This document shows, one piece after another, positions 1-11,700 of a DNA stretch of 64,000 bases. The notes under the pieces were generated by a model, which was not told the DNA's origin, did not search any database, and was given only the letters and a program-made list of their open reading frames with translations. The DNA is from Paenibacillus sp. FSL H8-0079 (GTDB lineage Bacteria > Bacillota > Bacilli > Paenibacillales > Paenibacillaceae). The stretch lies in contig NZ_CP150300.1 of the NCBI RefSeq assembly GCF_037991315.1, forward strand, positions 4,526,001 to 4,590,000, written 5' to 3'. How positions within the stretch are numbered: the first letter of the stretch is position 1; the number at the start of each line of letters is the position of its first letter. Made by a program: the position numbers and the translations under genes.

Positions 1-555
1 CTGCTGATCTCCCTGCTTCGTGCTGAAGCCGAAAATCCGGATGGCAAGTTCCGGGGATACGAGTTGTATCTCGGACGTCTTGCTACTTTTCTAACCATTG
101 GATTGCTTCAGGCGGTATGCGTCACCCTGGGAGATATCTTAATCCTGGGTACTTACGTCGCAGATAAACTGTGGTTTGTCCTGTTTGCCATGCTGGTGAG
201 TGCCGTATTTGTCACCATAACGTACACTCTGCTATCCGTATTTGGGAATATCGGAAAAGGGATAGCCATTATCTTCATGGTGTTCCAGTTCTCCAGCTCG
301 GGCGGTACGTTCCCGATCAGCATGACATCACCCTTTTTCCAAGCATTGAATCCGTTCATGCCCTTCACATATGCGATTAGCCTGCTGCGTGAGTCGGTCG
401 GCGGCATCTTGTGGTCTACTGCCATCAAAGATATTCTGTGGTTATGTATGTTCATCGCGCTGAGCCTCATCATTGCCCTTGCTTTGAAACGACCACTAAG
501 CAGTCTCACCAAACGTTCAGCCGAGAATGCCAAGAAGACCAAGATTATTGCTTAA
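1..555 (+). CDS. YhgE/Pip-type membrane protein, C-terminal fragment
   Basis: The reading frame is open from base 1 to the stop at 553-555, so the gene is truncated by the window edge and only about 184 C-terminal residues remain. It shows about four hydrophobic segments and the loop SSSGGTFPI followed by LNPFMPFTYAISLLRE, which is typical of the ABC-2-like membrane domain at the end of YhgE/Pip (phage-infection-protein-like) proteins. In Firmicutes these are large integral membrane proteins of export type; the substrate cannot be told from here. The frame ends in a lysine-rich tail and runs convergently into the next gene with a shared hairpin between them. Confidence 0.8.
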   Translation: MLISLLRAEAENPDGKFRGYELYLGRLATFLTIGLLQAVCVTLGDILILGTYVADKLWFVLFAMLVSAVFVTITYTLLSVFGNIGKGIAIIFMVFQFSSSGGTFPISMTSPFFQALNPFMPFTYAISLLRESVGGILWSTAIKDILWLCMFIALSLIIALALKRPLSSLTKRSAENAKKTKIIA

Positions 556-646: not shown

Positions 647-1951
647 TTATTTCACTGAGCGTTCCTGTTCCAACTGATCATAGGATTGCTTGATTGTTGT
701 TAATGTTTCTACATGGCGATAGATGTTGTTACTTGCCGTAACGATAACACATAACATGATCAAACCTATAACTACTTTTTTCCCCAATCCTCGACGGAGG
801 CCGATAACGAAACCCCCACCCAACAGGAAGAACGCAAACAGATAATGTCCCGCATACAGGTACATATCATATTGAAATACAGCCAGACCGAAACCCACGA
901 CGACATGAAGCAAAAAGGCAAACAGAATATATGGCACAAGGGTCCACACTTCACGTTCACGAATGCCCTTAATGAAGCCTATGAGTGCCAGCAGCAAAAT
1001 AAAGATCCCCGTAATCTGCACATAGATTGGATTGGATCGAGACAGATCCGTAACAAAGGCTGCCATGCCTGGGTCCAGTAAATGCATCTTCGGTGTCAGC
1101 ATCGGATTGATGGTTAACATGTTTAATGCTTTCCAGTGAACTGCAAATTGGAATGGTGTTGCATAACTGGTCCCGCCATTTTGAATGCCCAACAGCCAGT
1201 TACTAACCCAGCTACGACCTCCGAATGCAACATACTGAACGCCTGTGAATACGGCAATGATTACAACTGCCAGTGCCATGATTCCAATGTACTTTTTCAA
1301 ATTCGCCTTATTACGCCATCCATGCATATTGATGAATGTCGCAGCTGCAAACGGTACGATATTCGTCGAGGTTAGTCCGAAGTTAATCGATGCAAGTAAC
1401 GCATTGGGTGAATAACGTACGTCCTGACGCTCACGAGTATACTGCATGTAAACCACCGAGAACAGGATAACGAACTGTACATACGGATATGAGTCCGGAA
1501 TCAATGCGGTATACATTAAATAGGAACTGAAACCAAACAACAAAGCGAAAAGCAGCGGTGCGATGGTCGGCTTGTCTTCTTTTTGACTCAGAAACAGATA
1601 CGCCAGCACCACCGAACCCGCATTCACCAACGATTGCAGGATTAGAAAGAACCAGTTGCCTCCCAGCAGCTTCGCTACAGCCGCAAGAGTAACTGCAAGA
1701 AAGGAAATCAGCGGATGAATAACAGAAGAACTGTTGTCGCCGTAATACATTGAGGGATCAAAGTTGAATAAGTTGATTGGGAACAGCGTCGTATTAAATG
1801 GGGTATACGTCCCAAGCATATCTGCATTATTTTCAATGTACAGAACATACGAGCCGTTCATTAAACCATAGAATAGAGCAAATCCCGCAAACAGGTAAAA
1901 AGCTGTCCAATTGGCTCTGCGATTATAAAATAAGTGATCTAAAAAGTTCAT
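647..1951 (-). CDS. Polytopic membrane protein, GT-C glycosyltransferase-like
   Basis: This encodes 434 residues with about eleven hydrophobic spans and an ATG start. An acidic, extracytoplasmic-looking first loop (IENNADML, residues 39-46) follows the first membrane span, as in GT-C enzymes that take sugar from a polyprenyl-phosphate donor. I recognise no named family with certainty, so the glycosyltransferase call is inferred from topology and from its position as the last gene of an operon with a UbiA-type prenyl-phosphate phosphoribosyltransferase, a HAD phosphatase and two flippase-like proteins. The gap to the preceding gene is 78 nt. An alternative is an O-antigen-polymerase-like protein. 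The gene is read toward the shared terminator at 573-621. Confidence 0.55.
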   Translation of the reverse strand: MNFLDHLFYNRRANWTAFYLFAGFALFYGLMNGSYVLYIENNADMLGTYTPFNTTLFPINLFNFDPSMYYGDNSSSVIHPLISFLAVTLAAVAKLLGGNWFFLILQSLVNAGSVVLAYLFLSQKEDKPTIAPLLFALLFGFSSYLMYTALIPDSYPYVQFVILFSVVYMQYTRERQDVRYSPNALLASINFGLTSTNIVPFAAATFINMHGWRNKANLKKYIGIMALAVVIIAVFTGVQYVAFGGRSWVSNWLLGIQNGGTSYATPFQFAVHWKALNMLTINPMLTPKMHLLDPGMAAFVTDLSRSNPIYVQITGIFILLLALIGFIKGIREREVWTLVPYILFAFLLHVVVGFGLAVFQYDMYLYAGHYLFAFFLLGGGFVIGLRRGLGKKVVIGLIMLCVIVTASNNIYRHVETLTTIKQSYDQLEQERSVK

Positions 1952-2029
1952 GCTTTCATTTCACATCCAATAAATTTTATAAAAAAACTATATAACTTGA
2001 GTGCTCATGTAAATAATCTTTAGTTCACC

Positions 2030-2350
2030 TTAAAACACCAATAAACATAGGCCACCCATAATACATGCCACACCTATCCAGCGTAAAGGACCCACCATCT
2101 CCTTAAATACCAACCGCGCGATGATGAGAGTCCAGACATATGTTAATGCATTGGCAGGTAGTACAACAGTTAATGGAAGAAACTTCAACAATACAATATT
2201 CAACAATGCACCTGTCCCATAGAATCCGAGTCCCATGAGCACATGTAGGCGATTGCGACTTGTCGCATAAGCTTTCAATCCGGCCCCGCCCAATGCACCG
2301 CACAACGTCATAACAATTAGCACAGCAACCATCCAGCTATCGATCAACAC
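2030..2350 (-). CDS. EamA/SMR-like half transporter, second subunit
   Basis: This is a 106-residue protein with four predicted membrane spans, the size of an SMR or ArnE/ArnF subunit. The C-terminal part (TYVWTLIIARLVFKE, then a final GGLCLLVF) has the pattern of the last helices of EamA/DMT domains. The GTG start is supported by GGGGTG ten bases upstream, and the gene overlaps its upstream partner by 14 nt, so the two are translationally coupled. Small DMT proteins in pairs often form heterodimers; ArnE/ArnF flip a polyprenyl-phosphate aminosugar. With a prenyl-phosphate pentose synthase upstream, a lipid-sugar flippase role is inferred. Confidence 0.7.
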   Translation of the reverse strand: MLIDSWMVAVLIVMTLCGALGGAGLKAYATSRNRLHVLMGLGFYGTGALLNIVLLKFLPLTVVLPANALTYVWTLIIARLVFKEMVGPLRWIGVACIMGGLCLLVF

Positions 2351-2666
2351 TGGTTAATGTCACCCCAATTCCAAGCAACACGACTGCTGTCAGCTTCTGC
2401 ACCGTAATTTCTTCCCCGAGCAAGAAATATCCATAGATTAAGGCAAATACGTAACTGGCACACATCAGCGGATAAGCAACAGAGAGTTTTTCCAGAGCAA
2501 AAGCTTTGATCATCAAGATCGCTCCAACTCCATAACATAGAAAACCAACACCCAGGTAGATCCACTCGGTTAGTCCCCATTTCCAGAACAATTGACCCGT
2601 TGCTGTCAGAAATGCGGAGACGAGCATCAACCATTTACCAGTATGACGTGACTTTATTTCCCCCAC
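2337..2666 (-). CDS. EamA/SMR-like half transporter, first subunit
   Basis: This is a 109-residue protein with four membrane spans. It carries GQLFWKWG near residue 24, the GQ-x-x-x-K motif seen in ArnE/ArnF-type small DMT proteins, and SVAYPLMCASYVFALIYGYFLLGEE-like final helices cut here to SVAYPLMCASYVF. The GTG start is supported by GGAGG seven bases upstream. It overlaps the preceding HAD gene by 13 nt and the following EamA gene by 14 nt. It probably forms a heterodimer with that partner. The membrane-embedded Glu of drug-exporting SMR proteins is not visible in helix 1, which argues against simple multidrug efflux. Confidence 0.7.
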   Translation of the reverse strand: MGEIKSRHTGKWLMLVSAFLTATGQLFWKWGLTEWIYLGVGFLCYGVGAILMIKAFALEKLSVAYPLMCASYVFALIYGYFLLGEEITVQKLTAVVLLGIGVTLTSVDR

Positions 2667-3286
2667 GTTAATGCCTCCATGTCCGGAACACGCTTGTTAA
2701 TAAAGTATCGTTGACTTACAAGTTGCATGACTGGAAGGTCGGATAAGGAGTCCGAGTAGGAACATGACTGGTCATAATCAATGACCATATTCTTCTCACT
2801 CAGATAAGCCTGAATTCGGCGTACCTTCTCTTCCCCTTTGCAATTGCTGCCATCAACTCTGCATGTGTAACCATTCTCATGACGGACAAGTTCAGTTCCA
2901 ATTACATGATCCACCCAGGGAAAATTATTAAAGTATTTCATATAGGCATGCGGAGATGCAGTTACTAGCAAGACATGATACCCTGCTTCTTTGCGATGTT
3001 GCATCTCTACACTGGCCTCTGCAAAAATGGACGTACGCAAGCGAGTATCAAAGAAATGTTCGAGATCTTTTTCAGACATACGCTCAATTTCTTGAAAGTA
3101 GGATCGTTTGACTTGTTCAACCGTCATAAAGCCTGCCTTGAATAACACGGTATGTAATGCAATGACAGGTAATCTCCATACCTGCCACGGGTAACGGCGA
3201 ACACCGTAATGCACAAATTGAAACATGGAATCACTACGTATGATCGTTTTATCAATATCAAAAATTGCGACTTTCGTGCTTTTCAC
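2654..3286 (-). CDS. HAD-IB family phosphatase
   Basis: This 210-residue cytoplasmic protein has all the HAD motifs: motif I FDIDKT (residues 9-14, nucleophile and acid Asp), motif II with VTAS around residue 108, a basic motif III, and motif IV YSDSLSDLP near residue 178. The long helical insertion after motif I fits subclass IB (SerB/CicA-like). The GTG start has GGGGG six bases upstream. In the mycobacterial decaprenyl-phospho-ribose pathway the phosphoribosyl product must lose its 5-phosphate, a step attributed to a PAP2-type enzyme (Rv3807c). This HAD enzyme, 18 nt downstream of the synthase gene, is a plausible replacement. That role is inference. Confidence 0.75.
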   Translation of the reverse strand: MKSTKVAIFDIDKTIIRSDSMFQFVHYGVRRYPWQVWRLPVIALHTVLFKAGFMTVEQVKRSYFQEIERMSEKDLEHFFDTRLRTSIFAEASVEMQHRKEAGYHVLLVTASPHAYMKYFNNFPWVDHVIGTELVRHENGYTCRVDGSNCKGEEKVRRIQAYLSEKNMVIDYDQSCSYSDSLSDLPVMQLVSQRYFINKRVPDMEALTWGK

Positions 3287-3304
3287 CCTGATCCCCCTCA
3301 GCCT

Positions 3305-4219
3305 TTATTCAAAGATTGCAAAGATTGTAATAACACTTATCACATACAACATCACCGTAATTAATATAGGCTTGTCCTCAAACAGCACACGATCGGGCGA
3401 ACCTCCCTGATTCTTCATATGGATCAGATACAGGTAACGGAACATGCCGTAAATGACCAATGGAATCGTCCACATCAGATGGATGGACCGATCTGAAGTG
3501 AATGTGAACAGCGAATAACTGATAATCGTAGCTGTGGTCACAATCGTATTGAATTGATCCAGCAACGTAACGGAGTAGTTATCCAAAACCTTACGGTGTG
3601 ATCCCGTGTTTCCTTCCAGCAAAGTAAGTTCATTTCTTCTTTTGCCAATGGCCAGAAACAACGACAACAACATCGTACAGATCAAAAACCACGGCGTGAA
3701 TGGCACATGGATCAGCACACCGCCTGCAATCGCGCGAAGTACAAAGCCGGCTGCAATGGTCATCATATCCAGGATAACGAGATGTTTCAGTACAAATGAA
3801 TACGAGACATTCAACAGGAAGTAGACGATACATAACACCCCGAATAGAGGGTTCATCATGAAGGCCGTTCCTACGGAAAGGATTAATAGAATAATGCCAA
3901 ACAACAAAGCATGACTCGGATTCACCTGCCCAGAAGCCATAGGACGATACTTTTTCACCGGATGCTGTCGATCCCTGTCCCGGTCTACAAAGTCATTTAA
4001 AATATACACACAGCCTGCAACAAGGCTAAATAGAATAAAACCAAGCAACGTCGCAAGAATGGTTTCAGTCCGAATCTCCTCAAAAGAGAATAGTAACGCA
4101 GCAAATAACAGCAGATTTTTAGTCCACTGTTTGGGTCTTAACAATCTGACTAATCCTGACACTGTACTACCTGTTCCTGTAGCCGGTGAGGACACCGTAC
4201 TGGTTCGTGATGATAACAA
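3305..4219 (-). CDS. Polyprenyl-phosphate phosphoribosyltransferase, UbiA superfamily
   Basis: This 304-residue integral membrane protein has about eight to nine spans and the UbiA magnesium-binding motif NDFVDRDRD (around residues 75-83), followed by HPVKKYRPMASG. The later loop AIGKRRNELTLL with HRKVLDNYS resembles the decaprenyl-phosphate phosphoribosyltransferase (DPPR synthase, Rv3806c) branch rather than menaquinone or heme enzymes. That reaction joins PRPP to a polyprenyl phosphate. The start is TTG, chosen because GAAGGGAG lies at 8-nt spacing; no early ATG fits. It is the first gene of a five-gene operon with its own promoter. The substrate lipid would be undecaprenyl-type in this organism, which is inference. 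Confidence 0.75.
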   Translation of the reverse strand: MLSSRTSTVSSPATGTGSTVSGLVRLLRPKQWTKNLLLFAALLFSFEEIRTETILATLLGFILFSLVAGCVYILNDFVDRDRDRQHPVKKYRPMASGQVNPSHALLFGIILLILSVGTAFMMNPLFGVLCIVYFLLNVSYSFVLKHLVILDMMTIAAGFVLRAIAGGVLIHVPFTPWFLICTMLLSLFLAIGKRRNELTLLEGNTGSHRKVLDNYSVTLLDQFNTIVTTATIISYSLFTFTSDRSIHLMWTIPLVIYGMFRYLYLIHMKNQGGSPDRVLFEDKPILITVMLYVISVITIFAIFE

Positions 4220-4276
4220 TTGTAATAACTCCCTTCAACAACAACTTCTGTATATAACAAATAACGTAAAGATCTA

Positions 4277-4305
4277 ATCATATGTTGCTTGTATAATTTT
4301 GTAAA
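4277..4305 (-). promoter_or_regulatory. Sigma-A promoter of the UbiA operon
   Basis: On the minus strand TTTACA (4300-4305) is separated by exactly 17 nt from TATGAT (4277-4282), about 50 nt before the TTG start. It is the only good promoter seen for the five-gene unit. Confidence 0.6.
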
Positions 4306-4337
4306 GGGAGTAAATTAAAAAAATCTAATATGGGCAT

Positions 4338-4368
4338 AAAAAAAGAGACCGTTTCCGGTCTCTTTTTT
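4338..4368 (-). terminator. Terminator downstream of dapL
   Basis: A 13-bp stem (AAAAAAGAGACCG at 4339-4351 and its complement at 4356-4368) with a TTTC loop gives a minus-strand hairpin followed by a T run, 30 nt after the dapL stop. It separates dapL from the UbiA operon. Confidence 0.85.
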
Positions 4369-4398
4369 AGTACGTAATTAAACTATTGGGTAATGCGA

Positions 4399-5652
4399 TT
4401 AAAATTCAAATTGTACGTCGCTCAAACGACGTTTGATCTCAGCGATAACACGTTTCTCTTCCTCTTCACCCTTAGCTTCAAAGGTAACGGAGAAACGAAC
4501 AAAGTTACCTGCATCATCCCAAGGTACGGACGAGATCAGTTTCTCACGGATCAGGAATTGGGAGAAATCTTCGCCGGATTCGAAGCGACGTCCGCCAACC
4601 ACACCTTTTGGTGCTTCAACATACAGGAAGAAGGAACCTTTAGGTTTTTCAGCCTGGAAGCCCAGTTCGTTCAGTGCGGCAACGAGCATGTCGTGACGAC
4701 GGGAATATTTCTCTGCAATCTTTTCGGTGATCTCAGGGTGATTCAATCCATAAGCAGCTGCCTTTTGAATCGCGATGAACTGACCAGAGTCATTGTTGTC
4801 CTTTACGTCGCTGAATGCTTTGACTACAAGCGGGTTACCCGCTACGAATCCGATTCTCCAACCCGTCATGTTGTAGGACTTGGACAGAGAGTGCAACTCT
4901 ACGCCGACATCCTTCGCACCAGGTACCGACAGGAAGCTGAACGGTTTTTTGCCATCGTACGTCAATGCTGCATAAGGAGCATCATGGACAACGACTACAT
5001 TGTATTTCTTCGCCCACTCCACGACTTCAGTGAAGAATTCCACTGTGGCACTTGCGCCAGTCGGATTGTTCGGATAGTTCAGGTAAAGCAACTTCGCACG
5101 TTTTGCGATGTCTTCCGGAATAGCTGTCAGATCAGGCAAGAAATTGTTTTCCTTCGTCAACTGAATGTTGAACACTTCTCCGCCCAGATACTTGGTATGT
5201 GTACCCATAACCGGGTAACCTGGAACGGTCATGATGGTCACATCACCCGGATTGATAAAGCATGAAGGCATCATCGCCAAAGCCGGCTTGGAACCAATGG
5301 AGTGCACGATTTCGGTATCTGCATCGATACCTTCTACGTTGAATACGTTTTTCAGGTAGGACGCAGCAGCAGTCTTGAATTCAGGAATACCATTATCGGC
5401 ATAACCACGGTTCTCAGGTCTGGAAGCTTCTTCTGCAAGTGCAGCTACAATGCCTGCATCCGCCATTTCGTCTGGTTCACCTACACCAAGGTCAATCAGT
5501 TCCACATCGGGAAAATCTTTTTTGGCCGAAGCTTTGGCACGTTTGATTTTCTCGAATTTATAAATGTTCGTGTCTTTACCATAGTTGGAGCCACCGATAC
5601 GGTCGGCAAAATTAGTCTGAATGTAAGTTTCTTGATATTTATCGATACTCAT
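4399..5652 (-). CDS. dapL: LL-diaminopimelate aminotransferase
   Basis: This fold-type I PLP aminotransferase makes LL-2,6-diaminopimelate from tetrahydrodipicolinate in one transamination, feeding lysine and meso-diaminopimelate for peptidoglycan. The N-terminal IYKFEKIKRAK and DLGVGEPDE, the NYPNNPTGA motif, and the PLP lysine in SLSKSYNMTGWRIGF (Lys about residue 258) place it in the DapL-like group. The frame extends to an ATG at 5664, but GAGGAG directly abuts that codon, while it lies 12 nt before the ATG at 5652 (MSIDKYQ), so I use 5652 (417 residues). DapL fits the meso-DAP-type MurE in this window. A broader aminotransferase specificity cannot be excluded. Confidence 0.85.
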   Translation of the reverse strand: MSIDKYQETYIQTNFADRIGGSNYGKDTNIYKFEKIKRAKASAKKDFPDVELIDLGVGEPDEMADAGIVAALAEEASRPENRGYADNGIPEFKTAAASYLKNVFNVEGIDADTEIVHSIGSKPALAMMPSCFINPGDVTIMTVPGYPVMGTHTKYLGGEVFNIQLTKENNFLPDLTAIPEDIAKRAKLLYLNYPNNPTGASATVEFFTEVVEWAKKYNVVVVHDAPYAALTYDGKKPFSFLSVPGAKDVGVELHSLSKSYNMTGWRIGFVAGNPLVVKAFSDVKDNNDSGQFIAIQKAAAYGLNHPEITEKIAEKYSRRHDMLVAALNELGFQAEKPKGSFFLYVEAPKGVVGGRRFESGEDFSQFLIREKLISSVPWDDAGNFVRFSVTFEAKGEEEEKRVIAEIKRRLSDVQFEF

Positions 5653-5762
5653 AACGTTGTTCATCTCCTCATTTGACGCAAATTTCTACACTTTAATATG
5701 AAGCATTTGCGTGATCAAAGCCATGGACAAAGTATCCGAACATTTGTACTTTCTTGGAGCTG

Positions 5763-6725
5763 TTAACGACTGCGTAGCGAAGCAAGCACGTCTTCCATAT
5801 CCTGCGGAATCGGAGCTGAAAATTCAAGGTATTCTCCCGTTGTTGGATGCACAAATCCAAGAATGGCCGCATGAAGAGCCTGTCCTTGCATTTTGATGCC
5901 TTTATTCCGTCCATAAGTTGGATCTCCTACAAGCGGGTGACCGATAAATTTCATGTGAACCCGGATCTGGTGGGTACGTCCTGTCTCCAGTTTCAATTCC
6001 AGCAAGGTATAGTCATTGATGCGCTCTGAAACGGTAAAATGCGTAACGGCATGTTTACTGTTGCGTTCCGTGACTGTATACATTTTGCGATCATTAGTAT
6101 CGCGTCCAATCGGTGCATCAACGGTCCCTTGATCATGATTAAGATGACCATGAACGAGCGCAATATACCGTCTGTTCACCGTATGGTCTTTCAACTGCGC
6201 AGCCAATGACGAATGCGCACGATCGTTCTTGGCAGCCATAATTAGGCCGGAAGTATCCTTATCGATGCGATGCACAATACCCGGGCGCAACTCTCCATTG
6301 ATACCCGAAAGGTCTTTGCAGTGGTACATGAGTGCATTGACGAGTGTTCCAGACGTATGTCCTGGTGCAGGGTGCACTACAAGACCACGCTGTTTGTTGA
6401 TCACGATCAGGTCGCTATCTTCATATACCACTTCCAGCGGAATATCTTCGGCAATGATCTCGACGGCAGCCGGTTCAGGAATCTGTAGTACAATCAGATC
6501 ACCTTCGGATAACTTGGCATTGGCTTTGACTACAGCACCATTTACCGTAACCATCCCGTCTCCGATCCACAATTGAACTTGGGAGCGAGATACGTTATCC
6601 ACAGCTTCCGTAATATATTTGTCAATTCGTTCTTTCTTATGTTCAGCGGCAACGGTCCATTCCATACGCTCATTGCCATTCATTAGTTCTTCGTCGTTGA
6701 TCTGTTCCTCATTCGGATTACTCAT
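5763..6725 (-). CDS. rluD: 23S rRNA pseudouridine synthase, RluD family
   Basis: This protein isomerises uridines in large-subunit rRNA (family knowledge: RluD targets helix 69). An N-terminal S4 RNA-binding domain (RIDKYITEAVDNVSRSQVQ) precedes the catalytic domain with GIVHRIDKDTSGL, which holds the catalytic Asp, and ends with LETGRTHQIRVH and HPLVGDPTYG. The frame is open to 6791, but GAAGGGA at 9-nt spacing selects the ATG at 6725 (MSNPNEEQ), giving 320 residues and an 8-nt overlap with lspA. The lspA-rluD order is the same as lspA-ylyB in Bacillus. It is probably transcribed with lspA. Confidence 0.9.
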   Translation of the reverse strand: MSNPNEEQINDEELMNGNERMEWTVAAEHKKERIDKYITEAVDNVSRSQVQLWIGDGMVTVNGAVVKANAKLSEGDLIVLQIPEPAAVEIIAEDIPLEVVYEDSDLIVINKQRGLVVHPAPGHTSGTLVNALMYHCKDLSGINGELRPGIVHRIDKDTSGLIMAAKNDRAHSSLAAQLKDHTVNRRYIALVHGHLNHDQGTVDAPIGRDTNDRKMYTVTERNSKHAVTHFTVSERINDYTLLELKLETGRTHQIRVHMKFIGHPLVGDPTYGRNKGIKMQGQALHAAILGFVHPTTGEYLEFSAPIPQDMEDVLASLRSR

Positions 6726-7212
6726 GGTGTTCATTCCCTTCAATCTTCGCGGCTGCTTTTTCGCGCCGTCCTTCAAGCAACGTCTCCACAATGATCAACG
6801 CTACACCGATACAGATTGCCGAGTCGGCGATGTTGAAAATGGGAAACGTGTAACTTCCAAAATTAAGCTGTACAAAATCCACAACTTCTCCGGTCAGTGC
6901 CCGGTCAAGGAAGTTGCCAATTGCTCCACCGAGCACCAAGCTAAGCGCCACAGGCAGCAATTTGTGCGGGGTATCTTTTACCTTTTGCAAATACCAAATC
7001 AAGGCAACGACCACAATCACCGTAACCACAATAAAGAACCAACGCTGGTCTTGCAGAATGCCAAAAGCTGCACCTGAATTACGATGTGATGTGATGACAA
7101 AGAAATTGCCGATGACCGGAATTTCTTCTCTGAGTTCCATCCGGGTTGCAATCAGGAACTTGGTTCCCTGATCCAATAAAAATACGATAAAAGCGAGGAT
7201 ATAATACACCAC
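6718..7212 (-). CDS. lspA: Lipoprotein signal peptidase (signal peptidase II)
   Basis: This 164-residue membrane aspartyl protease cleaves signal peptides of prolipoproteins after diacylglyceryl transfer; the OppA and YlaJ-like lipoproteins here are likely clients. It has four membrane spans, the family boxes NSGAAFG (residues 45-51), GNFLDR with catalytic Asp103 and FNIADS with Asp130. The start is one of two consecutive GTG codons with GGAG about 12 nt upstream. It has its own extended -10 promoter and is coupled to rluD downstream. Confidence 0.93.
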   Translation of the reverse strand: MVYYILAFIVFLLDQGTKFLIATRMELREEIPVIGNFFVITSHRNSGAAFGILQDQRWFFIVVTVIVVVALIWYLQKVKDTPHKLLPVALSLVLGGAIGNFLDRALTGEVVDFVQLNFGSYTFPIFNIADSAICIGVALIIVETLLEGRREKAAAKIEGNEHHE

Positions 7213-7274
7213 GTTTGTTTGTCACTCCGTTCTTGTCTTTTCCAAACGATACCAGGCTTACGCCAGACTTGTTT

Positions 7275-7304
7275 ATTGTAGCACAGCTGTTTGGAAATCG
7301 TCCA
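7275..7304 (-). promoter_or_regulatory. Extended -10 promoter of lspA-rluD
   Basis: On the minus strand TGGACG (7299-7304), an 18-nt spacer and TACAAT (7275-7280) preceded by TGC form an extended -10 promoter about 60 nt before the lspA start. Confidence 0.5.
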
Positions 7305-7432
7305 CGACGCGCTACATCGCAATCCTCATGGCAAAAACGATAACATTTCCCTTCTGTAATCTTGCCCTTAATGGCACATCCTACAATAGAGTCAAAATCC
7401 GGATTCCAGACGAAAGCAGAAGGGGGAAAATC

Positions 7433-8170
7433 ATGTCACATTTCACTGCTAAACAACTACAATTTTTACGTTCCCAACTGATAACCGATAAGCGCGATAT
7501 TGAACATAGACTGTCGGAGAACGAACATTATGGCCTTGGAGACTCCCTCAAACTACAGACAGGTGAATTATCACCGATTGATAACCATCCTGGTGACATA
7601 GCCACCGAGGTGTATGAACGCGAGAAGGATATCTCCCTGCTGGAACACGATGAATTCCAATTGGAGCGTATCGATTCTGCACTGCACTCCATCGAAGAAG
7701 GACATTATGGTACTTGTGCGGTCTGCCAGCAACCCATCCCTTATGAACGTATGGAAGCCGTTCCCTACACGAAATATTGCAAAAAACACCAACCGGAAAC
7801 CGTTGTCTCCGAAAACCGTCCTGTCGAGGAAGAATTCCTTGCCCCCGCATTTGGACGAACGAGTCTGGATGAACGGGATGACCAAAATGGCTTCGATGGT
7901 GAGGACACCTGGCAGATTGTTGAGAGCTGGGGCACATCGAACTCACCAGCGATGGCTGAAGGACGTGATATCGACAGCTATGACGTTATGGCGATTGAAG
8001 CCACAGATGAAGTGGAAGGTTGCGTTGAAGCGTACGAAAGTTTTGTGGCAACGGATATCTACGGTCATGACGTCTCCATCGTACGCAATCGGCAATATCG
8101 CAAGTACCTGGAGAACCGTGAAGGCGATGGTCTGTTAGAAACGGATGTGGAGACGGATGACACGTTTTAA
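7433..8170 (+). CDS. DksA/TraR-type zinc finger protein, YteA/YlyA family
   Basis: This 245-residue protein has an N-terminal helical region (FTAKQLQFLRSQL) and a C4-type zinc finger (CAVCQQPIPYERM then YCKKHQ, around residues 96-122), which defines the YteA/DksA group found in spore formers, often listed as general-stress or sporulation proteins. The frame is open from 7328, but GAAGGGGG before the ATG at 7433 (MSHFTAK) fixes the start. The third region (residues 150-245) is acidic and without known motifs. Bacillus has ylyA between ileS and lspA; here the gene sits at the same place but on the opposite strand. Confidence 0.8.
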   Translation: MSHFTAKQLQFLRSQLITDKRDIEHRLSENEHYGLGDSLKLQTGELSPIDNHPGDIATEVYEREKDISLLEHDEFQLERIDSALHSIEEGHYGTCAVCQQPIPYERMEAVPYTKYCKKHQPETVVSENRPVEEEFLAPAFGRTSLDERDDQNGFDGEDTWQIVESWGTSNSPAMAEGRDIDSYDVMAIEATDEVEGCVEAYESFVATDIYGHDVSIVRNRQYRKYLENREGDGLLETDVETDDTF

Positions 8171-8217
8171 TTGCACTTGGATATCATTTGCTTCATTCGA
8201 TTTTTTCGCTTAATCGC

Positions 8218-8574
8218 TTAGTAGGTGTTCATATCCAGCTGACGCTGCACAATGCGCACAATATCAGCGATGTAGTCTCCAACAATAGGAAGATTAAGCG
8301 CCCCAAGCAGCTGTAAAACATAAATGATCGTTGCTGCGAAAAAGGTAAACCCAATTGCGATCCCCACACCTCTTGCGGCTCCAGACAACAGGTTCAATCC
8401 GATTAATTTCCACGGCCTGTTCAGCAATTCCGTGTATTGCGCAATCCGGGAACGTTCCAGTTCATTCGCCAGACGGTTCGTCAGGGTATGTAACTCTTCG
8501 ATTTTGTCATGTGAATTCAGTTCATCTGATGTTGATGGTGAATTGGATGTGGATTGCTTGTCATGTTCGCTCAT
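8218..8574 (-). CDS. DUF5665 membrane protein
   Basis: This 118-residue protein has an acidic, Ser-rich N-terminus (about 35 residues), a short amphipathic helix, then a membrane region GAARGVGIAIGFTFFAATI and a second hydrophobic stretch ending VGDYIADIVRIV. That layout matches DUF5665 of Bacillales. A TTG-initiated frame reaches 8598, but AAGGAA at about 11 nt selects the ATG at 8574. No function is known to me. It lies between the ileS terminator and the inverted YlyA-like gene, so it is probably monocistronic. Confidence 0.7.
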   Translation of the reverse strand: MSEHDKQSTSNSPSTSDELNSHDKIEELHTLTNRLANELERSRIAQYTELLNRPWKLIGLNLLSGAARGVGIAIGFTFFAATIIYVLQLLGALNLPIVGDYIADIVRIVQRQLDMNTY

Positions 8575-8639
8575 GTTTTGGTCAGTTCCTTTGATCAATA
8601 TAGATTGACTGCACTATAAAATCATTGCCTTTTTGCCTA

Positions 8640-8693
8640 AAAAACAAACGAGCCCAGAACCAGGGAATATGTCCCTGCCTCTGCGGCTCGTTT
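8640..8693 (-). terminator. ileS terminator
   Basis: Outer stem AAACGAGCC (8646-8654) pairs with GGCTCGTTT (8685-8693), with an inner GGGA/TCCC hairpin. On the minus strand it is followed by a T-rich tract (8638-8644), 47 nt after the ileS stop. Confidence 0.85.
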
Positions 8694-8739
8694 ATTTTCA
8701 CGCTATATTCTGTCAATGTTGAATATTACATACTTCGAA

Positions 8740-11700
8740 TTACGCCTCGATGTAAATACCGATCGATTTGCCTCCAGCTTCAATGCGTTCCATAGACTCA
8801 TTCGAGCCGAATGTAACTTCGGTTACGAGAACATTTTCACGCAACACATCATCAAACGCCTGAATAGCTTCCTGAAGGGATGCATCTACATCCAGCGTCA
8901 AACGTACTCTTTTCTCAATCGGCAAGTCCAGTCGTTTCCGGGTATCCTGCACAGCACGAACCACTTCACGGACCCAACCTTCCTGTTCCAATGCTGCCGT
9001 GATTTCGGTATTGAGTGCCACCGTCAGACCGTAACCTGATGCTGAGGCAAAGCCTGATTTGGCCTGTTTATCGACCAACAATTCTTCGCTCGTCACTTGC
9101 AGCTCTTCTCCTTCTGGAGAAACGATGTTCAGTACACCTTCCGAAACCACTTTACGCGTCTCATCGGCAGACATTCCCTTGAAGAAGTTTTGCAGGAACC
9201 CTACGCTTTTGCCGTATTTTTTACCTGCGACCTTCAGGTTCAGCTTCAATGTAAAGTCAACGAATTCCGCATCATTATGCTCGGTACGGATTCCTTTTAC
9301 ATTGATCTCTTCTTTGATGATCTCTTCGTAACTTGTCAGGTCAAATCCTTTATCCAGGGAAACGATCAATTCGGACAGCGGCTGACGTGTCTTGATGCCT
9401 GTTTCGTTACGAACGTTACGGGCAAGTTCGACCACGCGGCGAGCCGTCTCCATATCCTGTTCCAGTCCTGCATCAATCAGTGCTTCGTTAGCTAACGGAT
9501 AGTCTTCCATGTGCACACTCTCACCTGTTGCAAGGTTCAGATAGATGTCTTCTGCCAGCATCGGTGTGAACGGAGCAACCAACTTCGCAGTAGTCACCAG
9601 TACCTCAGTCAATGTACGGTAAGCGTCCAATTTATCCTCTGTCAGGCCACTTCCCCAGAAACGGTCACGGGAACGACGGATATACCAGTTACTCAACTCA
9701 TCAACAAAAGCTTCGATCGCTTTGGAAGAGTTCAAATAGTCGTTAACCAGCAACGCTTTTTCTACAACCAGGATCAGGCTGTTCAGTCTTGACAGAATCC
9801 AGCGATCCAGCTTGTGTGCGGACAGTTTGAACGGGTGCTCCTGTGGATCAAATCCATCAATGGTAGCATAAAGCGTCAGGAACGCGTGGGTGTTGACGAG
9901 CGTATCCACCATTTTAGATTTTGCTTCGCCGACGATGCCTTTGGAGAAACGTTTGCTGTTCCACGGTGCACTGTCAGACAACAAAGCCCAACGGAATGCA
10001 TCAGTACCGTATTCTTCAATGACTTCCCAAGGATCGATAACGTTACCTTTGGATTTGGACATCTTCTGTCCGTTCTCGTCAAGAACGTGTCCTGTAGCCA
10101 TAACCGCTTTGTAAGGCGCTTTGCCTGTCAAAAGGGTGGAAACTGCCAACAAGCTGTAGAACCAGCCACGTGTCTGGTCAATCCCTTCACAGATCATATC
10201 CGCAGGATACTGCTGTTCGAATACTTCTTTATTTTCAAATGGATAGTGCTGCTGGGCAAACGGCATGGAGCCGCTGTCGAACCAGACATCAATCACTTCC
10301 GGTGTACGTTTCATTTCATATTTGCCACAAGAGCTCATGACTTTAACGTCATCCACATAAGGTTTATGCAATTCAAGATTCTCAGGCACGTCGCCTACCG
10401 CACGGGCACGCAATTCTGCAATGCTGTGTGGAGCAAATTGTTCCCCAGTCTCCTCGCACACCCAGATGTTCAGCGGAGTTCCCCAATAGCGATCACGGCT
10501 GATATTCCAATCCACCAGATCCTCAAGGAATTTCCCGAAGCGACCTTCCCGAACATGACCCGGGAACCAATCCACTTCACTATTGTTAGCAATCAGTTGG
10601 TCCTTGATGGCTGTCGTTTGGATAAACCAGCTATCCATTGCATAGTACAGAAGCGGTGTATCACAACGCCAGCAGAATGGGTAGCTGTGCTCATATTTTT
10701 CTTTGCTGAACAAACGTCCATGCTCCGACAGATATCTCACGATATCAATATCACAATCCTTCACGAAACGTCCGGCAAAGTCAGTAACCTCAGCGACAAA
10801 TTTGCCTTCCAGGTCCACCATGTTCACAAAGCTGATCCCATTCTCACGGCATACACGGTAGTCATCTTCACCGTGGGCAGGAGCCATGTGTACGATACCC
10901 GTACCACTTGCATCCGTTACAAAGCCTGCGCCCAAGATGATGTTGGCTTTCTCAGCCTGTACGTACTTGAATGGAGGATCATACGTTTTGCCAACAAGGT
11001 CAGCACCTTTCAGCGCACCAATGATCTCATACTCACCTTTGGCATCTTTCATCACTTTCTCAACCAGATTGGTTGCCATGATGTACACTTCGTTGTCTTG
11101 ACGAACACGGGAGTAGTCCATCTCCGGATTCACGGCAAGTGCAACGTGCGAAGGCAATGTCCAAGGCGTTGTCGTCCAGGCGAGTACGAATTCTCCGCTG
11201 TCATTCAGTTTGAATTTCGCTGTAGCGCTCAAGTCTTTGACGTCTTTGTACCCTTGTGCAACTTCATGGGAACTCAGTGTCGTCTGACAAGATGGACAAT
11301 ACGGGCTCACACGATGACCACGATACAGCAATCCCTTCTCGTGGATCGTCGCCAGGATGTTCCATACACTCTCGATGTAATTGTTATCAAGGGTGATATA
11401 TGGGTTATCCATATCCGTCCAATATCCGATACCTTCCGTCAGGTCACGCCATTGTTGCTCGTACTCGAATACGCTCGCTTTACATTCGTTAATGAATTTC
11501 TCCACGCCGTAATCTTCGATTTCCCACTTGTGGGAGATGCCGAGCTTCTTCTGCACACCCAGTTCTACAGGCAGACCATGTGTATCCCAGCCCGCTTTAC
11601 GAACGACACGGTAACCCTTCATCGTGTTATACCGTCCAACGAAATCCTTGATTACGCGTCCCAGTACGTGACCGATATGCGGTTTACCGTTCGCTGTAGG

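Follow-up and report, generated by a model that had tools for sequence, protein, structure and literature searches.

In Citrobacter, as shown experimentally by Kelly et al. 2024 (PMC11127046), a UbiA-type polyprenyl-phosphate phosphoribosyltransferase (PPPRS) with an HAD domain makes farnesyl-phospho-ribose, whose ribose a GT-C enzyme of family GT136 then transfers, no epimerase being needed; the presence of an epimerase gene switches the pentose. An EmrE/ArnE-like flippase is proposed in that work, the flipping of lipid-linked pentoses by such transporters being without direct demonstration, and Gram-positive candidates are mentioned, among them a Bacillus. We analysed a 64 kb stretch (positions 4,526,001 to 4,590,000 of NZ_CP150300.1, hereafter the window) of the 6.7 Mb, single-contig genome of Paenibacillus sp. 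FSL H8-0079 and describe a five-gene operon on its minus strand (647-4219), which we consider, with a probability of roughly 0.7, to be a self-contained module for pentofuranose transfer, of the three-component type. A PPPRS-type protein, a phosphatase, flippase-type proteins and a GT-C protein are linked in this operon in the following order:

4219-3305, minus strand: DPPRS/PPPRS-type UbiA protein (polyprenyl-phosphate phosphoribosyltransferase), 304 aa, TTG start
3286-2654, minus strand: HAD-IB phosphatase, proposed polyprenyl-phospho-ribose 5'-phosphatase, 210 aa
2666-2337, minus strand: SMR1, half-size EamA protein, N-terminus predicted inside, 109 aa
2350-2030, minus strand: SMR2, half-size EamA protein, N-terminus predicted outside, 106 aa
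1951-647, minus strand: GT-C glycosyltransferase of the DUF6080 group, proposed pentofuranosyltransferase, 434 aa

A preliminary description of this DNA had reported this gene order, overlaps of 13 nt (HAD/SMR1) and 14 nt (SMR1/SMR2) and the motifs NDFVDRDRD, FDIDKT, YSDSLSD and GQLFWK. The coordinates of the open reading frames (ORFs) agree with the order and both overlaps and give gaps of 18 nt between UbiA and HAD and 78 nt between SMR2 and GT-C; all four motifs are found in the sequence.

We propose a model according to which the UbiA protein would load phosphoribose onto a polyprenyl-phosphate carrier, the HAD protein would take off the 5'-phosphate resulting in polyprenyl-phospho-ribose, SMR1 (N-in) and SMR2 (N-out) would form an antiparallel heterodimer flipping this lipid, and the DUF6080 GT-C protein would use the flipped lipid outside to add ribofuranose to an envelope glycan or another surface acceptor. 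The preliminary description had put forward such a lipid-linked ribose pathway, with flipping by an SMR heterodimer and ribosylation outside, and our data support it as the best reading. Computation shows the gene families, the PRPP-site residues of the first enzyme, the GT-C fold, the linkage and the opposite charge bias of the SMR pair; the lipid carrier, the substrate of the phosphatase, the role of the flippase, the donor, ribose as end sugar and the acceptor are what we infer. The preliminary description had also called the pathway seemingly complete, which passes over the acceptor.

Comparison with described systems

In kind, the window operon belongs with the system of Kelly et al. 2024 (PMC11127046), as a further good example that brings no new principle; it is less novel than the preliminary description implied, as this type of pathway was already described there, and a Paenibacillus operon may already be among the Gram-positive candidates in the supplement of that paper. 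With the Citrobacter youngae O1 genes (ORF12, ORF14 and ORF15; PMC11127046) it shares a UbiA-fold PPPRS, an HAD phosphatase, an EmrE/ArnE-like flippase, a GT-C enzyme and the absence of an epimerase for ribose. The two differ in that HAD and PPPRS form one protein in C. youngae O1, whereas they are separate in the window (HAD being fused to SMR1 in one species), in that the flippase there is a single gene, called MATE in PMC11127046, instead of two unlike SMR genes, and in that the GT-C enzyme there (ORF12) is a GT136 protein with a carbohydrate-binding domain and here a 434-aa DUF6080 protein. Moreover, the C. youngae O1 genes are located inside an O-antigen locus, whereas no polysaccharide genes were found among the direct neighbours examined in the window, and the relatives of the window operon are Gram-positive, unlike the Citrobacter system. 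Peculiar to the window operon are thus the DUF6080 GT-C protein, a flippase made from two genes of opposite charge bias, an HAD protein that is either separate or fused to the flippase, and the stand-alone location.

With the mycobacterial decaprenyl-phospho-arabinose pathway (Rv3806c, Rv3807c, DprE1/E2, Rv3789) the operon has in common a homologous phosphoribosyltransferase and the use of a lipid-linked pentose outside by GT-C enzymes. It differs in the lack of a detected DprE1 in the genome, in an SMR/EamA pair replacing Rv3789 and in having one GT-C enzyme. The window phosphatase is an HAD protein, whereas Rv3807c is called unrelated to HAD phosphatases in PMC11127046.

The UbiA-fold protein retains the phosphoribosyl pyrophosphate site

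The UbiA protein exceeds the cut-offs of two curated DPPRS models, NF008977 (286 bits, cut-off 234) and NF008978 (236.7 bits, cut-off 207), and stays below that of a third, NF008976 (191.8 bits, cut-off 474). The solved structure closest to it by sequence is Rv3806c (PDB 8j8j, 168 bits), which is also the best structural match of its predicted structure, a middling model, with 31% identity over the structural alignment. Twelve residues of Rv3806c contacting phosphoribosyl pyrophosphate (PRPP) or Mg are listed in PMC10994848. Ten of these are identical in the UbiA protein (R28, K34, Y72, N75, D79, K89, R92, Y140, K145 and K210) and the other two are changed conservatively (Q to N137 and Y to F159), a Phe at the position equivalent to F159 also occurring in some mycobacteria (PMC10994848). 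Across 41 aligned operon copies (the window and 40 named loci) 11 of the 12 contacts are invariant, nine of the 11 being identical to Rv3806c. The PRPP site, whose loss would have spoken against the earlier proposal, is thus retained with two conservative changes, supporting the assignment as a DPPRS/PPPRS-type phosphoribosyltransferase with a predicted PRPP-dependent activity, i.e. a non-mycobacterial relative of an enzyme called an attractive drug target in PMC10994848.

Membership in the UbiA superfamily (PF01040, 103 bits) would also fit a quinone, heme or other prenyltransferase, in which case the gene set would not be a sugar pathway. We regard this as barely conceivable: the best such model, cyoE_ctaB, reaches 54.7 bits at a cut-off of 210.3, and among the best 25 of the 27 matching model families the quinone and heme models give at most 55 bits, far under their cut-offs. 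The genome has three other UbiA proteins, two of them heme-o-synthase-like (L001 1450-2307 and L002 1432-2361) and one ubiA_other/MqnP-like, each with five of the 12 PRPP residues. A quinone or heme identity is therefore very unlikely at the sequence level, and the separation from quinone prenyltransferases, on which the preliminary description had made its proposal depend, is given.

The gene set is linked in relatives

Among 118 sampled genomes of the family a strong match to the GT-C protein (E below 1e-90) is present in 25 (26 if G107, which has a remnant only, is included), with a DPPRS over the cut-off in every one of the 25, compared to eight of the 93 genomes without a strong GT-C match; in one of the 25, G095, a stop lies inside the DPPRS match. 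DPPRS genes as such occur widely in the phylum: of 299 genomes sampled, 44 have a match at 1e-40 and 32 have one that exceeds the cut-off. GT-C alignment furthermore identified 61 loci in named genomes, 60 of which have a DPPRS gene ahead of the GT-C gene in the same orientation, full-length in 59 and as a fragment in L086. The exception is L107 of Brevibacillus formosus, where the GT-C gene stands alone and a DPPRS over the cut-off is encoded elsewhere in the genome. With a same-strand DPPRS upstream of nearly every GT-C gene, chance does not account for this gene set, and the linkage in relatives, a further point on which the earlier proposal hung, is confirmed.

All five components are found at 47 of the 61 loci, counting L075 with a short HAD frame and one fusion. 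HAD is lacking in L111, L113, L115, L118, L121 and L131; minimal loci consisting of DPPRS and GT-C are L104, L106, L108, L110 and L132 (in L132 the GT-C is split over two ORFs), and L122 and L086 are decayed. We considered neighbours of about 220 aa beside GT-C as candidate phosphatases in loci without HAD; those tested turned out to be a cell wall hydrolase (L106, L108) or LysE (L107). Clustering of ORFs of at least 90 aa from 35 divergent loci of the 61 gave no sixth operon gene such as an epimerase or a backbone enzyme, no other ORF family occurring in more than nine of the 35 loci.

In G107, a genome of the same genus, the regions corresponding to window positions 4168-9000 and 713-863 (92.8% and 78.8% identity) lie right beside each other. 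Nearly the whole operon was lost in what looks like one deletion, suggesting that it is dispensable as a unit. At L072 (7091-7293; same genus) what remains is the beginning of the UbiA gene joined to the last part of the GT-C gene, as would follow from a single deletion.

Ribose is the likeliest sugar

The preliminary description had argued for ribose from the absence of DprE1/E2 in the window, and three DprE1 queries on the complete genome agree with it: the ALO-domain search gave no match at E<=1, the NCBIfam DprE1 model NF053785 none at 1e-20, and the DprE1-like protein of the relative G043 a single 32-bit match to a BBE-type FAD protein. As no DprE1 is found in the complete genome, ribose is the likeliest final sugar. 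The DprE2 model gave 39 SDR-type matches in the genome, none over the cut-off, which leaves room for a DprE2, SDR proteins being common.

The same pathway might also deliver an epimer, either xylofuranose by a single SDR epimerase or arabinofuranose by a distant DprE-like pair encoded elsewhere. In favour of this, one SDR gene switches ribose to xylose in the system of Kelly et al. and the GT-C enzyme accepts both donors (PMC11127046), and the genome has the 39 SDR-type matches mentioned above. A relative, G043, furthermore has a DPPRS gene adjoining a DprE1-like gene and a DprE2-like SDR gene (197 bits, cut-off 250; L063 6188-9263). Its DprE1-like protein is the sole full match to the DprE1 model among the 118 family genomes (499.5 bits, cut-off 500); of the 20 genomes matching at 1e-20, the other 19 are partial (79-99 bits). 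G043, which has no match to the GT-C of the window, likely contains an arabinose-type operon in a Gram-positive of the same family, and the family thus seems to hold both an arabinose-type version and the epimerase-free version present here. Against an epimer speak the failed DprE1 searches, the lack of a sixth conserved gene and the finding that the DprE1 model reaches 100 bits in none of the 25 genomes with the GT-C, its partial matches in seven of them scoring 90-99 bits and covering roughly the first 200 positions. We consider an epimer rather unlikely and ribose the preferred assignment.

SMR1 and SMR2 show opposite charge bias

SMR1 and SMR2 are distant relatives (29% identity over 69 residues), both matching the EamA model PF00892, SMR1 with 31.9 bits over the cut-off of 28.2 and SMR2 with 28.2 bits exactly at it. 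Topology was assessed by charge bias as the sole method, placing four helices by hydropathy and counting K and R on each side. In the window SMR1 has a bias of +3, i.e. an excess on the N-terminal side, and SMR2 of -4, on the other side. The bias is opposite in 26 of 26 pairs hand-picked from 46 loci having both as separate ORFs, and SMR1 is positive and SMR2 negative in all 54 scored loci (61 were searched, the other seven lacking one or both), which include many close relatives and do not represent 54 independent events. This pattern is that expected of an antiparallel heterodimer, as judged from the sequences, and such a pair may well act as flippase for the phospho-ribose lipid.

The flippase of undecaprenyl-phospho-aminoarabinose, ArnE/ArnF, likewise consists of two unlike subunits. 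SMR1 and SMR2 resemble it in being two unlike half-size proteins and in weak sequence similarity: the best NCBIfam match is ArnE for SMR2 (E 1.9e-9) and, by a narrow margin, ArnF for SMR1. They differ in remaining far under the ArnE and ArnF cut-offs of 92 and 99 (SMR1 20.3-20.9 bits, SMR2 16.9-37.7 bits) and in the predicted cargo, a phospho-ribose lipid. SMR2 also weakly matches Qac-type SMR models (E 0.0037-0.054), and DPPRS and GT-C occur without any nearby SMR in five of the 61 loci, as would fit a drug exporter carried along with the operon while another protein is the flippase. This reading has a low probability given that both SMR genes are placed between DPPRS and GT-C in 54 of the 61 loci and that the best matches are the Arn subunits, even though under cut-off.

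The HAD protein and its link to the flippase

The HAD protein is over the cut-off of the HAD-IB model TIGR01490 (121.6 bits, cut-off 98.3) and matches PF12710 with 109.8 bits. Residues D10, D12, T14, Y177, S178, D179 and D183 do not vary in 21 aligned copies (the window, 19 named loci and L069), D10 being the loop-I catalytic Asp of the HAD-IB family. In the fused HAD-UbiA family PRK08238 (cut-off 351) the UbiA half is matched by the UbiA protein with 181 bits and the HAD half weakly by the HAD protein with 17.4 bits, both under the cut-off. We propose that the HAD protein acts on lipid-linked ribose-5-phosphate.

P. kobensis joins HAD to the N-terminal end of SMR1 in a single 317-aa frame (L123; L055 represents this locus in the other genome set), which ties the phosphatase to the flippase. 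With the HAD domain in the cytoplasm, SMR1 would have to be N-in, in agreement with the charge count.

Elsewhere in the family some DPPRS genes have a gene for a DUF212 (divergent PAP2) protein nearby, in the place that HAD has in the window operon. In L052 (2977-8071) it adjoins one SMR/EamA protein and two proteins of 543-570 aa with DUF6080 matches under the cut-off; L053 and L054 have the same ORF sizes, a likeness by size alone, and in L068 (7285-8604) the DUF212 protein lies beside polysaccharide genes. A swap of the phosphatase, DUF212 for HAD, is possible at these loci.

The GT-C protein and the DUF6080 group

The DUF6080 protein has a GT-C fold in a confident structure model. Among solved structures, sequence searches gave weak matches to light-harvesting proteins alone, which we take as chance. 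Its nearest relatives are Paenibacillus proteins, with 93% identity for the best listed protein and 97% for the best named locus. Across the phylum five of 299 sampled genomes match DUF6080 at 1e-3, and the two over the cut-off (G000 and G006) both belong to the genus of the window. In G351 (C82:6988-11203; DUF6080 match in L146) a weak DUF6080 match and a DPPRS match share a strand and are separated by about 3 kb.

As neither donor nor acceptor follows from a GT-C fold by itself, and our literature search found nothing on DUF6080, the operon could make lipid-linked ribose while the GT-C protein uses another lipid-linked sugar, or the ribosylated lipid could be the end product. Both are improbable in view of the DPPRS beside GT-C at 60 of the 61 named loci, including the five two-gene minimal loci. 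The literature search likewise found nothing joining pentofuranose, GT-C and Paenibacillus, or polyprenyl, phosphoribose and Paenibacillus.

Extending the ribose pathway to the whole group, we see even odds that the DUF6080 proteins of Paenibacillus and relatives form an undescribed family of extracytoplasmic ribofuranosyltransferases decorating a Gram-positive surface polymer, being fed by a dedicated phosphatase-flippase unit with two unlike SMR proteins locked in opposite orientations. If true, this would assign a function to a DUF6080 group and lead one to expect a surface molecule carrying ribose in Paenibacillus, Saccharibacillus and some Brevibacillus. The flipping of lipid-linked pentoses could then be studied in an environmental bacterium on a compact unit of five genes, with a lipid-pentose flippase whose two halves could be tested one by one.

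Flanks and control signals

The operon is flanked by a convergent ABC-2 transporter ORF (64-555, plus strand) and an aminotransferase gene (4399-5664, minus strand). Two further elements were located:

4305-4277, minus strand: promoter-like site TTTACA-17-TATGAT 5' of the UbiA gene, consensus scan, 10/12 matches
572-622, strand unassigned: long hairpin, probable terminator, between the GT-C gene and the convergent ABC-2 gene, RNA fold

The single promoter suggested in the preliminary description is plausible: the site at 4305-4277 matches the consensus at 10 of 12 positions, but such sites are no commoner in the region than in shuffled sequence (six versus a shuffle mean of 10.2), i.e. show no excess over chance. 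The hairpin at 572-622, which is not among the sites listed by the terminator scan, folds with -36.6 kcal/mol (z -6.36), with none of 200 shuffles being equally good.

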